A DNA stretch of 23,454 nt from positions 1 to 23,454 of the IMG/VR virus record IMGVR_UViG_3300025128_000344, one strand, 5' to 3'. Shown here piece by piece: positions 3,241 to 20,742 of the stretch. The position numbers and the translations under genes are program-made. The notes below the pieces were generated by a model that made no database searches, was not told where the DNA came from, and saw only the letters and a list, made by a program, of their open reading frames with translations. This stretch comes from a virus. How positions within the stretch are numbered: position 1 is the first letter of the stretch; every line of letters begins with the position of its first letter.

Positions 3241-3262
3241 CTTCCACATAAAAATGTGGAAG
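3241..3262. repeat. Perfect 9-bp inverted repeat of the TTCCACAT core
   Basis: CTTCCACAT (3241-3249), a loop of four A, then ATGTGGAAG (3254-3262). It could form a tight hairpin or serve as a dyad for a dimeric binding protein. There is no T-run on either side in the reading direction, so it does not look like an intrinsic terminator. Confidence 0.6.
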
Positions 3263-3408
3263 CCATTTTGTTAAAAGCATTGGTATATAACACTTTCCAC
3301 ATTTCTACATTAATACTTAAAATATTTTTCACCTACCTCGGTCCGATTTTGGGAAGAGAAATGTGGAAAACGTGGAAAACATACTATTTGCTATATATAC
3401 CAACGGTT

Positions 3409-3496
3409 CTAGCTTCCACATTTTCCATTTTAAAAATGTGGAAAATGTGGCAAATGTTCATTTTATGCGGGTTTTTGACACTAGCTTCCACATTTT
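3409..3496. repeat. Two 16-bp direct repeats spaced 72 bp apart
   Basis: CTAGCTTCCACATTTT occurs at 3409-3424 and again at 3481-3496. Each copy is followed by reverse-orientation TGTGG cores (3437 and 3447 after the first, 3501 after the second). The region thus contains a duplicated unit inside the larger repeat cluster. Confidence 0.65.
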
Positions 3497-6202: not shown

Positions 6203-6375
6203 TATTTCTCCTTCGCTTTTCCGTTTAACTTTTCTATTTTTTCATTCACTAAAATATTTATAGTCTGACTTCTACTTAAGATAGTGTTTGGCTGTATAAT
6301 GCGCCTGATCTTATCTACTTTAGTATATGTATCCGTGGACAGTGATACGTTTTTGTATTTGCTTATGTCCGTCAT
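6202..6375 (-). CDS. Ribbon-helix-helix (Arc/CopG-like) regulator, 57 residues
   Basis: The small protein fits the RHH fold. It has a beta strand KNVSLSTDTY, helix one TKVDKIRRII, a turn, then helix two from LSRSQTINILVNEKIEKL with the typical SRS-Q start. Members bind DNA as dimers through the paired strand and often control their own promoter. It is the first gene of the minus-strand operon that runs to the exonuclease. It has AAAGGA eight bases before its ATG and directly follows a strong divergent promoter region. Autoregulation is inferred from this position. The usual RHH length (45-60 residues) fits. Confidence 0.7.
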   Translation of the reverse strand: MTDISKYKNVSLSTDTYTKVDKIRRIIQPNTILSRSQTINILVNEKIEKLNGKAKEK

Positions 6376-6387
6376 ATAATGTATCCT

Positions 6388-6416
6388 TTCATATTTGATG
6401 TAGGATAATATATAAT
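6388..6416 (+). promoter_or_regulatory. Sigma70-type promoter for the 71-residue exported protein
   Basis: TTCATA (6388-6393, 4 of 6 with the -35 consensus), a 17-base spacer, and a perfect TATAAT (6411-6416). The predicted start near 6423 leaves a leader of about 10 bases that just includes the AAGGGA ribosome binding site at 6422-6427. It overlaps the opposite promoter and could share an operator. Confidence 0.5.
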
Positions 6417-6434
6417 TTTCTAAGGGATTGTCAA
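6407..6434 (-). promoter_or_regulatory. Sigma70-type promoter for the RHH-led operon
   Basis: On the minus strand there is a perfect TTGACA (6434-6429) and, 16 bases on, TATATT (6412-6407). An alternative TATTAT (6410-6405) has an 18-base spacer. Transcription would start near 6400 and give a leader of about 25 bases with an AAAGGA site. A small inverted repeat, TATCC (6382-6386) with GGATA (6403-6407), lies around the start and could be an operator half-site pair. Confidence 0.6.
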
Positions 6435-14482: not shown

Positions 14483-16023
14483 ATTATTTGTCCTCCTATT
14501 GTGTAGTAGTGCGCTGTTAAAGGTGATAAAATATACAACCTTTTCATCGCCCGTGTTGTTCCAACAAAAAACAATCTGTGTGTTGAGTCTGGATCTTCAG
14601 CTGCTTTTTGTGCTAACATTGTTGATTGTGTTTCTGTTCCGTAGTCTATACACAAAACAATATTTTCTCTTTCTCTACCTTTGGCTCCGTGTATGGTAGA
14701 TAATTCTATTCTTGGATCTGTTGATAAATCATCACCGCTTTTTAAAATACTTTTTATATATTTTTTTACATCTTCATCAAAGCTTAACTGTTGCCAATCA
14801 CCTTCAATTAACAAACCATGTTTCTTTTTTAAAATATCTAAAGATATTATTTCCTCACTGCTTAATGTTTTGCCGCTAGAATAACCATACTTAATATGAT
14901 TCTTATTGTAGTTTAAATAAGTCCACATATTTTTTGTTTCTTCAACTGTTGCTAGTTCTCCGTTATTTAATTTGTTCCAAGTTCTATAAGCTTCTAAAGT
15001 TTTTTGTGGTAGGATAGTGTTTCCTTTACCAAAAATTCTTAAACCTTTTCTATAAAAATGCTCTGAAAAATCTTTTAGTAATTTATTAGTTGTTGCTAGA
15101 ATCATCCATTCTCCTTCATTAAAATCTAGCTCTTCTAAGTAACAGTTTTCAATAAGTTCTCCCTCTTCATCTTTAGGGTACCATTTCTTATCTACTCGTT
15201 TACTTATGTAAGGTAGTATCTCTAAGGCTTTTCTATGCACTGCTTTTGGAACTCTGTAAGACTTTTCTTGGTCGTCTCTTTCTCCATCTAAGTCTATAAA
15301 AATATTAGAGTCTGCACCTTGAAAATTATATATTGTTTGGTCGTCGTCCCCTGCAATGTAAGATCGTTTACATCTTGACTCAATGTAAAAAAACATATTC
15401 CATTGCAGAGGATTCAGATCCTGGGCTTCATCAAGAAAAATTGCATCGAGAGCAAGATGTTTCTTTTCCTCAACAAATAGTTTAATCATGTCAGAGAACT
15501 CATACATAACATTTGATTTCTTATAATATTCAATATCTCTTTCTAATTGTTCTACAAAAAATATATCTACAGAGCCTTGATGATAATTTAATTGTATAGA
15601 AGCTTCTTGTAGACTAATCAATTTTGCTCTAGCATAATTTATAACCTGTAAATTCTTATCTTGATGTATGGTGGCTCCGCTTTCGTTAATAAAAGTATCA
15701 AAGTTTACGGCAGAATAAATTGGAAATACATTTTTAAACTGTTTCCATTTCTTACCGTTTAACAATTTTTCTTTAGTATTAATTGCTAGTTCTTTGGTTC
15801 CTATGCCGTGAAGCGTTGATACATATAAAAGTTCAACTTCGGGAAAAACTTTTTGAATTTTTTCTGCACCATCTAAAGCTGCAGCTCTACTAAAAGTAAC
15901 ATAAGCTATCTTCTGTGGATCTGTATGTAGGTCATTAATCTCTTTGTTTAAATAATGATTGACAAGCCTGTAAGTTTTACCTGTGCCTGGTGGACCCATT
16001 ATTTTTTTTCTGATTACTGCCAT
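14479..16023 (-). CDS. UvrD/Dda-like SF1 DNA helicase
   Basis: The 514-residue protein has the SF1A motifs: GPPGTGKT (Walker A, 10-17), VSTLHGIG (motif Ia area), DEAQDL (Walker B, 198-203), GDDDQTIYNFQGA (motif III, 225-237), SYRVP (motif IV), STIHGAKGRE (motif V) and FFVGTTRA (motif VI, 485-492). It lacks long accessory insertions, so it is nearer T4 Dda and short phage helicases than RecB. It translocates on single-stranded DNA, 3' to 5' in UvrD or 5' to 3' in Dda; the polarity cannot be read here. It starts 10 bases inside the primase gene and is the only obvious processive helicase in the replication operon. Confidence 0.9.
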   Translation of the reverse strand: MAVIRKKIMGPPGTGKTYRLVNHYLNKEINDLHTDPQKIAYVTFSRAAALDGAEKIQKVFPEVELLYVSTLHGIGTKELAINTKEKLLNGKKWKQFKNVFPIYSAVNFDTFINESGATIHQDKNLQVINYARAKLISLQEASIQLNYHQGSVDIFFVEQLERDIEYYKKSNVMYEFSDMIKLFVEEKKHLALDAIFLDEAQDLNPLQWNMFFYIESRCKRSYIAGDDDQTIYNFQGADSNIFIDLDGERDDQEKSYRVPKAVHRKALEILPYISKRVDKKWYPKDEEGELIENCYLEELDFNEGEWMILATTNKLLKDFSEHFYRKGLRIFGKGNTILPQKTLEAYRTWNKLNNGELATVEETKNMWTYLNYNKNHIKYGYSSGKTLSSEEIISLDILKKKHGLLIEGDWQQLSFDEDVKKYIKSILKSGDDLSTDPRIELSTIHGAKGRERENIVLCIDYGTETQSTMLAQKAAEDPDSTHRLFFVGTTRAMKRLYILSPLTAHYYTIGGQII

Positions 16024-18335: not shown

Positions 18336-18887
18336 CTATCTCCTTGTGATTTTTGTACTGTTACCCGCGTAAGTTTTAAATAGATCAGAGGGCATCTCAC
18401 GTCCAGATTCGAGACGCTCCCTGACTACTGCTTTAAGTGTCATGGCATGAACCCCTATCTTCTGGACTGGTTCATATCCTTGACCTTTTGCAAGGTCCGC
18501 GTATTTGCTCGCCTTGTTGTCTTCGCCTTGACCAAAGGTAACGGTAACATCGTTTTTAATGATGTCACCTAGGCCATTGTTTCGAAGCCATTGAAAAGCT
18601 TTTTCCTGATTCTCAGGTAAGATAGAGGCACTATAGAATTTTTTTATTTCTATAACTTCTTCATCCTTAAGCTTTAATTTTGTAATATGCATTTTCTCCA
18701 TCATCTCAGGTATTTCAAATTGAGATAATTGTTTTGCTTGTTCTTTTAATTTAGAAACACTTTTCTCTGCGTTTGCAATCTCGTCTTCTAAATTTTTTAA
18801 TTCTATAACTTTACTAGACAAACTTTCAGCTGTGTCTGCTTGAGTTACAGATTGTACTCTGTCTTGTTCATAGTCTATTTGACTCAT
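18336..18887 (-). CDS. Conserved phage replication-cluster protein with coiled coil
   Basis: From the ATG at 18887, preceded by AGAGGTGA, the product is 183 residues. A more upstream start at 18905 has no such site. A coiled coil (LKNLEDEIANAEKSVSKLKE) leads to a conserved domain with LPDL-like EIPEMMEK, LKLKDEEVIEI, NQEKAFQWLRNNGLGDIIKN, DVTVTFGQGED, VQKIGVHAMTLKAVVRERLE and a FKTYAGNSTKI end. The family (HGDIIKN..VxFGRGED in many phages) is common next to SSB-like genes but has no known activity to my knowledge. The stop lies in the ribosome site of the next gene. Confidence 0.7.
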   Translation of the reverse strand: MSQIDYEQDRVQSVTQADTAESLSSKVIELKNLEDEIANAEKSVSKLKEQAKQLSQFEIPEMMEKMHITKLKLKDEEVIEIKKFYSASILPENQEKAFQWLRNNGLGDIIKNDVTVTFGQGEDNKASKYADLAKGQGYEPVQKIGVHAMTLKAVVRERLESGREMPSDLFKTYAGNSTKITRR

Positions 18888-19254
18888 CGATTTCACCTCT
18901 TTCATGTATGTTAAACTCAGTTGGATAGTACATCTTTTCCTGCCTGTCCCAAGTTAACGTTTTATACTTTCCGTTGTTAATATCACACGCAACAGCAATT
19001 GCCAAACCAATAACCTTTGGATCTCCAGATAAAAGTAAATAATCTTTATCAGAAAAATCTTTTAGCAATCTTCTAAGCTGATAAGTTATCGGACCAGGAC
19101 TTCTAACTATTTGTGTGTCCTCTCTAAGAAGAACTTTTATTTGGCCATACTTTTGTGCGCCAACAATATTATATTTTGGACGACCAATTTTTGTACCAGG
19201 AACTTCTTGTAGCAGATAAACTATCGGCTCATTGTTTAGTGTCTTTTCTTTCAT
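18868..19254 (-). CDS. Hypothetical 128-residue protein, first gene of the replication operon
   Basis: The ATG at 19254 starts MKEKTLNNEPIVYLLQEVPG. The core continues KIGRPKYNIVGAQKYGQIKV, SPGPITYQLRRLLKDFSDKD and YLLLSGDPKVIGLAIAVACD, then LTWDRQEKMYYPTEFNI. From memory the same pattern occurs in marine phage hypothetical proteins. An upstream frame extension to 19350 is rejected because it crosses the promoter and is hydrophobic and non-phage-like. No ribosome binding site lies between promoter and ATG; the mRNA is predicted to be leaderless. The gene overlaps the next by 20 bases. Function is unknown. Confidence 0.7.
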   Translation of the reverse strand: MKEKTLNNEPIVYLLQEVPGTKIGRPKYNIVGAQKYGQIKVLLREDTQIVRSPGPITYQLRRLLKDFSDKDYLLLSGDPKVIGLAIAVACDINNGKYKTLTWDRQEKMYYPTEFNIHERGEIDESNRL

Positions 19255-19256
19255 GC

Positions 19257-19284
19257 TTGACAATATAATCTTTTCATTTATATT
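19257..19284 (+). promoter_or_regulatory. Sigma70-type promoter for the SNF2 gene, symmetric element
   Basis: TTGACA (19257-19262), a 16-base spacer, and TATATT (19279-19284). The expected start is near 19291, leaving about 17 bases before the SNF2 ATG, including the purine-rich GAAAGAAGAAA. The element is half of a perfect 11-bp inverted repeat, TTGACAATATA...TATATTGTCAA, with an 11-base centre. Confidence 0.65.
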
Positions 19285-19289
19285 GTCAA
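19262..19289 (-). promoter_or_regulatory. Sigma70-type promoter for the replication operon, symmetric element
   Basis: Mirror of the plus-strand promoter: TTGACA (19289-19284), 16 bases, TATATT (19267-19262). Each -10 box shares bases with the opposite -35 box. The expected start is at about 19255-19254, on the ATG of the first operon gene. The two promoters cannot be used on the same molecule at the same moment. Confidence 0.65.
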
Positions 19290-19308
19290 CTAGAAAGAAG
19301 AAATAAAA

Positions 19309-20742
19309 ATGATTAATTATAAGTTTAAGACAAAGCCATACGCGCATCAATTAACTGCGTTAGAAAAGTCTTGGGAGAAACAAGTTTACGCCTATTTTAT
19401 GGAAATGGGTACAGGTAAGTCAAAGGTATTAATAGACAATATATCAATGCTTTACGACAAAGGTAAAATAAATGCTGCCTTAATTATAGCACCAAAAGGT
19501 GTTTATCAAAACTGGCACGACTCTGAGATACCTACACACCTAGTGGATCATATAGATAAAAAAATGGTGTTGTGGCAAGCCATGATTACTAAAAGTCAAG
19601 AAAAAAAATTAGATACTTTATTTGAAGCAGGAGAAGAGTTACATATTTTAATAATGAATGTAGAAGCATTCTCTACTAAAAAAGGTGTGGCCTTTGCTAG
19701 TAAATTTTTAAACTGCCATAATACTTTAATTGCAATAGATGAATCTACTACAATCAAAAACCCTAGTGCTAAACGCACAAAAAATATTTTAGATCTTGCT
19801 AAAAATTCTAAGTATAGAAGAATACTTACAGGTTCTCCTGTAACAAAGTCACCATTAGATTTATATACACAGTGCCAGTTTCTCGATTCTTGGCTCTTAG
19901 GACACGCTTCTTATTATGGATTTAGAACACGATATGCTGTGATGCGTAATGCAAACTTTAATGGCAGGACGGTACAGATTGTTGTTGGTTATAGAAACTT
20001 AGGTGAATTATCTGCAAAGCTAGAACCTTTTTCTTATCGTGTATTAAAAGATGATTGTTTAGATCTACCAGAGAAAACATTTATTAAACGTATAGTGCAG
20101 TTAAGCCCAGATCAATCTAAGCTATATTTACAAATGAAAGAAAAAGCTTTAGCAGTATTGAATGGTAAGATGGTTAGCACCACAACTGTAATGACTCAAC
20201 TCATGAGATTACAACAAATAACTTGTGGACATTTTACAGCTGACGATGGTTCTACTCAAGAGATACCTAATAATCGTATTGACGAATTAGTGGATGTGTT
20301 AAGTGAGATAGAAGGTAAAGTTGTTATATGGGGCCACTGGCAAAAAGACATGACCCAAATAATAAAAGCAATAGTAAAAGAGTATGGAGAAAAATCTGTT
20401 GTAGATTATTATGGATTAACACCTAAAGAAGAAAGACAAGGTAATATAAATAAATTTCAAACAGATCCTGAGTGTAGATTTTTTGTTGGAACACCTGCAA
20501 CGGGTGGTTATGGTATTACACTAACTGCAGCTAGTAATATGATTTATTACTCTAATGGTTATGATCTTGAAAAAAGAACACAGTCTCAAGCCAGAATAGA
20601 TCGTATAGGTCAGAAATATCCTATGACCTATATAGATATAATATGCAAAGATACTGTTGATGAAAGAATAGTAAAAGCTTTACGTGAAAAAATAAATATA
20701 GCTAGTCAAGTTATGGGTGAAGAATTAAAAGAGTGGATATAA
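19309..20742 (+). CDS. SNF2-like DEAD/H helicase
   Basis: The 477-residue protein has Walker A MGTGKS (33-38), a DEST Walker B (D144, E145), LTGSPVTKSPLDLYTQCQFL (motif III area) and ATGGYGITLTAAS. It ends with a C-terminal helicase motif VI SQARIDRIGQ. This is the compact form without accessory domains, like the Snf2-type helicases found in many phage replication regions. Such proteins translocate on double-stranded DNA to remodel protein-DNA complexes or restart forks. It is divergent from, and shares a promoter element with, the replication operon. It converges on the XhlA-like gene with no strong terminator. Confidence 0.9.
   Translation: MINYKFKTKPYAHQLTALEKSWEKQVYAYFMEMGTGKSKVLIDNISMLYDKGKINAALIIAPKGVYQNWHDSEIPTHLVDHIDKKMVLWQAMITKSQEKKLDTLFEAGEELHILIMNVEAFSTKKGVAFASKFLNCHNTLIAIDESTTIKNPSAKRTKNILDLAKNSKYRRILTGSPVTKSPLDLYTQCQFLDSWLLGHASYYGFRTRYAVMRNANFNGRTVQIVVGYRNLGELSAKLEPFSYRVLKDDCLDLPEKTFIKRIVQLSPDQSKLYLQMKEKALAVLNGKMVSTTTVMTQLMRLQQITCGHFTADDGSTQEIPNNRIDELVDVLSEIEGKVVIWGHWQKDMTQIIKAIVKEYGEKSVVDYYGLTPKEERQGNINKFQTDPECRFFVGTPATGGYGITLTAASNMIYYSNGYDLEKRTQSQARIDRIGQKYPMTYIDIICKDTVDERIVKALREKINIASQVMGEELKEWI

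Follow-up and report, generated by a model that had tools for sequence, protein, structure and literature searches.

How might one 33-bp sequence start transcription in two opposite directions? The question arises at positions 19257-19289 of a 23,454-base fragment from the IMG/VR virus collection (the window, below, means this whole fragment). Here, TTGACAATATAATCTTTTCATTTATATTGTCAA lies between a single gene for an SNF2-like DEAD/DEAH helicase (PHROG 62; plus strand, 19309-20742) and the replication operon that this gene opposes, the first gene of which encodes a 128-aa protein of PHROG 5888, a family of unknown function (minus strand, 18868-19254). The site is a perfect inverted repeat with 12-bp arms around a 9-bp centre (12+9+12); the original prediction had recognized the repeat but divided it into 11-bp arms and an 11-base centre. 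It can be read as a putative symmetric bidirectional promoter: the SNF2 promoter would combine a -35 TTGACA at 19257-19262 with a -10 TATATT at 19279-19284 (plus strand, spacer 16), and the replication-operon promoter a -35 TTGACA at 19284-19289 with a -10 TATATT at 19262-19267 (minus strand, spacer 16), the last base of the SNF2 -35 doubling as the end of the opposite -10. In a promoter scan of the window, these are the two best matches, each scoring 11/12 against the consensus, which bears out the claim that TTGACA-N16-TATATT is present both ways. The best explanation, to which we give a probability of roughly 0.86, is that 19257-19289 comprises two fused back-to-back promoters of the sigma70/RpoD type.

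Could chance, or ordinary promoter-like noise in AT-rich DNA, produce such a site? Promoter-like sites are not overrepresented in the window as a whole (76 vs 70.7 expected), as noise would predict, but the repeat itself is another matter: the arm pattern, with up to three mismatches allowed, matches once in the window and in 0 of 100 shuffles; perfect repeats with arms of at least 12 and loops of 3-20 (13/300 Markov shuffles) number two in the window, including 19257-19289; and strict TTGAC..GTCAA pairs spanning 30-38 bp, of which about 0.4 would be expected per window, are found twice, both times filling a divergent junction. These shuffle tests, together with a reversed-pattern control and conservation over dozens of lineages (both discussed below), leave chance with a negligible probability.

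What becomes of the arms in related phages? Eighty loci were gathered by similarity of the SNF2 protein, with no DNA motif, and the DNA 5' of SNF2 was then compared. Among the loci with upstream DNA available, a TTGAC...GTCAA pair is present in 38/38 distinct divergent SNF2/replication junctions, including two (L013 and L025) in which an insertion had at first masked it; the pair search itself demanded TTGAC and GTCAA, so this count means that each junction has a pair, not that the letters are invariant. The TTGAC columns carry 2.0 bits and the innermost centre mostly well under 1 bit, near random, in the 33-34 bp class; this comparison of intergenic DNA, proposed as a check of the original prediction, thus gave what had been named as support, with both arms kept and a centre that drifts. 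The arm-to-arm length is 33, 34, 36, 37 or 38 bp, yet the distance from each -10 to its own -35 stays at about 16-17 bp: on either strand of the 34-bp sites, the -10 signal peaks 17 bp away from the -35 of the same promoter, and 38-bp sites have a -10 at 17 both ways as well, even though the other arm is 4-5 bp farther off; on their plus strand, a second register (TATAAG) occurs at 19. The summed -10 score at the SNF2 junctions, 323, is equalled by 0 of 2000 interior permutations. Because spacing is held within promoters but not between them, these data favour overlapping promoters over a rigid operator.

The relatives also supply natural one-way versions. At 13 loci, a gene is inserted between SNF2 and the operon so that SNF2 is no longer divergent; 13/13 keep TTGACA with a -10 (mostly TATTTT) 17 bp on, and the GTCAA arm is missing from all 13, although these loci are related to one another and therefore represent one or a few events. 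At five others (L134, L094, L103, L142 and L157), one flank has gained a gene, and the pair remains at the divergent junction, not with a particular gene. Thus, -35 and -10 hexamers lie on both strands with spacers of 16-18 bp and the pair is kept only where genes diverge, as befits overlapping divergent sigma70-type promoters, and the claim of a bidirectional promoter draws strong support from the comparison, in which the arms are retained at divergent junctions and the reverse arm is lost otherwise. Many relatives have sub-optimal -10 hexamers (TATATG, TAAAAG, TAAATG); this is expected because the opposite -35 fixes the sixth base, but such a -10 is also weak as a promoter element, which counts against the promoter reading. 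The perfect symmetry that had been emphasized is real at the window site but is not a conserved property, as the arms past TTGAC are unlike each other within most sites. Judged by sequence, the conserved property is a TTGAC on each strand followed, some 16-17 bp on, by a TA-rich -10, an arrangement of which perfect symmetry is a special case. The same differences between arms rule out their concerted evolution, in which template switching would maintain a perfect palindrome.

A palindrome invites another reading: a dimeric regulator, of the phage or its host, could bind the TTGAC half-sites as an operator and control both genes, the promoter look being secondary. The dyad in the window is indeed perfect, but across the SNF2 junctions the distance between half-sites ranges over 5 bp, or half a helical turn, while the -35/-10 spacing is kept, the centre is not conserved, the arms past TTGAC are often asymmetric, and the one-way version drops the reverse arm only. 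Instead of the fixed half-site spacing and symmetric arms of an operator, SNF2 sites offer 33-38 bp and asymmetry, and the variable spacing disfavours the suggested double role as an operator. The terS junction, which keeps 33 bp, is more favourable to this idea. This second site of the same build, missed by the original prediction, lies at 2266-2298 (TTGACTTGTACCTTAAATTACTCTATACGTCAA), between a gene for a 79-aa protein (minus strand, 2022-2261; ATG 2 nt after the predicted +1) and a terminase small subunit-like gene (plus strand, 2302-2826; ATG 1 nt after the predicted +1), named terS from its gene-order likeness to HTVC027P gp29 and not by a family search. It reads TTGACT-N17-TATACG on the plus strand and TTGACG-N17-TACAAG on the minus strand. 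Among relatives picked by the terS protein, 29/30 distinct sites are exactly 33 bp, every -10 begins with an invariant TA, and TTTA/TAAA is conserved too. The TTGAC arm is not universal at terS, since TTGCT replaces the left TTGAC in several lineages (L277, L278, L280, L328). The constant 33 bp and the conserved TTTA/TAAA would suit an operator, as would some 31-bp sites with promoter spacers that are too short. The promoter reading, for its part, has in its favour the conservation of the arms and the -10s, drift of the centre, the one-way loci, and recurrence at the unrelated terS junction; an operator is an improbable explanation.

Where would the transcripts begin? The nominal starts of the two fused promoters are about 36 bp apart. 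On the operon side, the A of the ATG is at 19254, one base off the nominal +1 (19255), so that the start codon lies at the predicted +1/+2; on the other side, some 18 nt separate the SNF2 ATG at 19309 from the nominal +1 (19291). As predictions, the leaderless operon gene and the short SNF2 leader proposed originally are therefore right. In most relatives the operon-side start codon is 0-2 nt from the predicted +1, with short leaders in L029, L032, L042 and L082. At terS, almost every relative has the terS ATG within 0-1 nt of the predicted +1, and for the opposite gene the gap is 1-2 nt in most; with distances of 0-2 nt, both mRNAs of this junction are predicted to be essentially leaderless.

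Just outside the arms, nearly all relatives have a GAAAG motif, 3-4 nt away, the position of which is tied to the promoter and not to the start codon. On the SNF2 side (19293-19297, plus strand, 3 nt past the arm), all 38 distinct sites have it 0-6 nt beyond the arm; its operon-side counterpart (19248-19252, minus strand) falls inside codons 1-3 and is shared by 37/38 distinct sites, where it occupies either of two reading frames. A plain Shine-Dalgarno role is insufficient to explain the motif, as the operon-side copy is 3' of the start codon; because this copy is mostly within the coding start and in two reading frames, GAAAG resembles a nucleotide-level element. In HTVC027P, GAAAG is enriched ahead of starts, but less than AGGAG, and on the SNF2 side it is possibly a weak ribosome site or an initial-transcript element. 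The SNF2 leaders of L012, L013 and L025 carry insertions of about 70-140 nt that are bounded by AGAAAG on each side and contain short inverted repeats; an Rfam search of these insertions for structured RNA gave no match. A third divergent junction in the window, 6374-6434, has TTGACA-N16-TATATT on the minus strand (6434-6407), with a -35 that overlaps the ATG of the plus-strand gene; this promoter-like pair precedes a small ORF that looks ribbon-helix-helix-like by eye, for which a PHROG search returned no match.

Does the repeat belong to replication itself, as an origin or cruciform element beside the replication genes? In favour are its AT-richness, its inverted symmetry and its location where the replication operon begins and the GC skew reverses sign. 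However, the skew reversal tracks gene orientation, the centre and the arm distance vary, and the repeat goes with divergent gene starts, even at terS, a long way from the genes for replication. A stronger candidate is located at 3242-3492, where a non-coding stretch of about 350 bp holds seven copies of TTCCACA/TGTGGAA, mostly as inverted pairs (TTCCACATTTT); close relatives (L258-L269, L279-L282) have 6-12 copies in the same place, and more distant ones have none. This DnaA-box-like cluster is a candidate origin or iteron array, and an origin at 19257-19289 is very unlikely.

How widespread is the fused arrangement? The pattern TTGACAWTATA-N9..13-TATAWTGTCAA occurs in at least 119 IMG/VR stretches, as compared to one for the reversed-pattern control; among the matches listed, most are SNF2 junctions and some divide unrelated gene pairs, terminase small subunit junctions (L132, L168, L180) among them. 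With the gap left free, the reversed control yields only two sequence pairs in IMG/VR, of 27 and 37 bp. In a GTDB search that fixed the -10/-35 fusion, demanded perfect -10 hexamers and left the gap free over 25-52 bp, 18/35 bacterial sites are exactly 34 bp, which corresponds to a spacer of 17 both ways, the sigma70 optimum; 11 of these 18 come from one family with TetR-like and DsbA-like neighbours, but when sites are grouped by neighbour families, 34 bp is still the commonest length (8/23). The family comprises eleven clostridial loci (L214-L248) in which divergent TetR-like and DsbA-like genes flank a perfect TTGACATTATA-N12-TATAATGTCAA junction. These junctions are like the phage sites in being 34-bp fusions of two -35/-10 pairs with 17-bp spacers, and unlike them in having unrelated genes and hosts and a neighbour that, read by eye, is TetR-family-like; that neighbour makes an operator likely there, and a plausible central operator in this 34-bp build is a further point for the operator reading of the phage repeat. 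Three phage sites with the same arms span only 31-32 bp (L108, 6899-6929; L155, 6168-6198; L115, 5573-5604); their spacers of 14-15 are too short for a good sigma70 promoter, which counts against the promoter reading.

If the arms serve both genes, do all phages with this gene order have them? The nearest named relative of the window is the pelagiphage HTVC027P, the SNF2 of which is 68% identical; for HTVC023P, the figure is 43%. When both arms were sought at their SNF2/replication junctions, HTVC027P was found to lack the pair and HTVC023P to have neither arm, with the gene order kept in both. The case named in advance as damaging, genes retained and arms lost, is thus encountered in these two phages but in none of the 38 divergent junctions. 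HTVC027P has TTGACT-N17-TATATA for SNF2 and an overlapping TATAAT for the operon, so both -10s overlap within TATATAAT, which suggests that lineages switch between solutions. Its gp30/gp31 junction (15947-15979) has a layout related to that of the window sites: TTGATA-N17-TATAAA and TTGATT-N17-TAAATA stand back to back within 33 bp, and a start codon sits at either promoter end, but the arms are TTGAT instead of TTGAC. As about five such loose pairs are expected by chance elsewhere in the HTVC027P genome, this case rests on its position at a divergent junction.

How, then, would the fused promoters work? The host RpoD holoenzyme would bind in either of two opposed orientations, transcribing SNF2 when facing one way and the replication operon, the first mRNA of which would start at or beside its own AUG, when facing the other. 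Each -35 hexamer would also serve as the stretch that follows the -10 of the opposing promoter, with one base shared in 33-34 bp versions, and because bound polymerases would overlap, the site would accept one occupant at a time. A host sigma factor is a natural choice for this group, since HTVC027P encodes no RNA polymerase and uses that of its host (PMC12753301). Four points here are inferences: initiation of transcription at this site, use of the host sigma70, mutual exclusion of the two polymerases, and an operon mRNA that has no leader.

Could the fused promoters also be a regulatory switch, making SNF2 and replication transcription alternatives between which an activator could tip the balance? 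This would extend the fused-promoter explanation and not compete with it. The overlap of the promoters makes the proposed choice between the two transcripts physically plausible, as simultaneous binding to overlapping elements should be sterically impossible; in E. coli bidirectional promoters, strengthening one -35 much reduced the opposite transcript in most cases tested (PMC12825309), and both -35 hexamers at 19257-19289 are consensus, which makes competition plausible. On the other hand, the basal output of bidirectional promoters in E. coli is as a rule insufficient for competition to arise (PMC12825309), compactness alone explains the overlap, and the text of the HTVC027P transcriptome report (PMC12753301) does not place SNF2 or the replication genes in time. 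Any effect of exclusion in the cell would hinge on how strong the promoters are. A switch is possible, but our support for it is tentative. More speculative still is the notion that in marine HTVC023P-type phages fused, exclusive two-way promoters are the standard divergent junction, at least at SNF2/replication and terS, and that occupancy competition and near-leaderless transcripts might balance the genome arms with no dedicated repressor.

The putative fused promoters matter beyond a single phage: dozens of natural variants that place the same promoters 33-38 bp apart, together with one-way controls, form a test bed for RNA polymerase competition. The sites also predict leaderless phage mRNAs and flag promoters in phages that infect one of the ocean's most abundant bacteria. 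In a text search of two pelagiphage papers for the word, promoters went unmentioned, and a limited literature search found no description of the fused -35/-10 geometry or of these phage junctions.

Overlapping divergent promoters are a known class, to which the phage site would belong as a variant. Lambda-type switch regions contain overlapping opposite-strand promoters with interfering polymerases. The pLS20 conjugation switch (PMC4207663) is similar in that promoters on opposite strands overlap and polymerases interfere; unlike either system, the phage site is a near-perfect dyad of core promoter elements only, with no regulator or operator identified here. A close parallel is offered by the symmetric promoters of Warman, Grainger and colleagues, which share a -10 and are described as widespread (PMC12825309): there, as is proposed for the phage sites, a short symmetric DNA engages RNA polymerase either way, occupancy is mutually exclusive, and the elements are common between divergent mRNAs. 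Those promoters have one -10 and starts separated most often by 18 bp, and sometimes by 10 or 23 bp (PMC12825309), whereas the phage sites have two separate -10s (19262-19267 and 19279-19284 in the window), each touching or overlapping the other's -35, and predicted starts about 36-41 bp apart. By the published definition (PMC12825309), the phage sites are a class neighbouring the shared -10 promoters and not members of it; HTVC027P, with its overlapping -10s, is nearer to that class and would fit it better.
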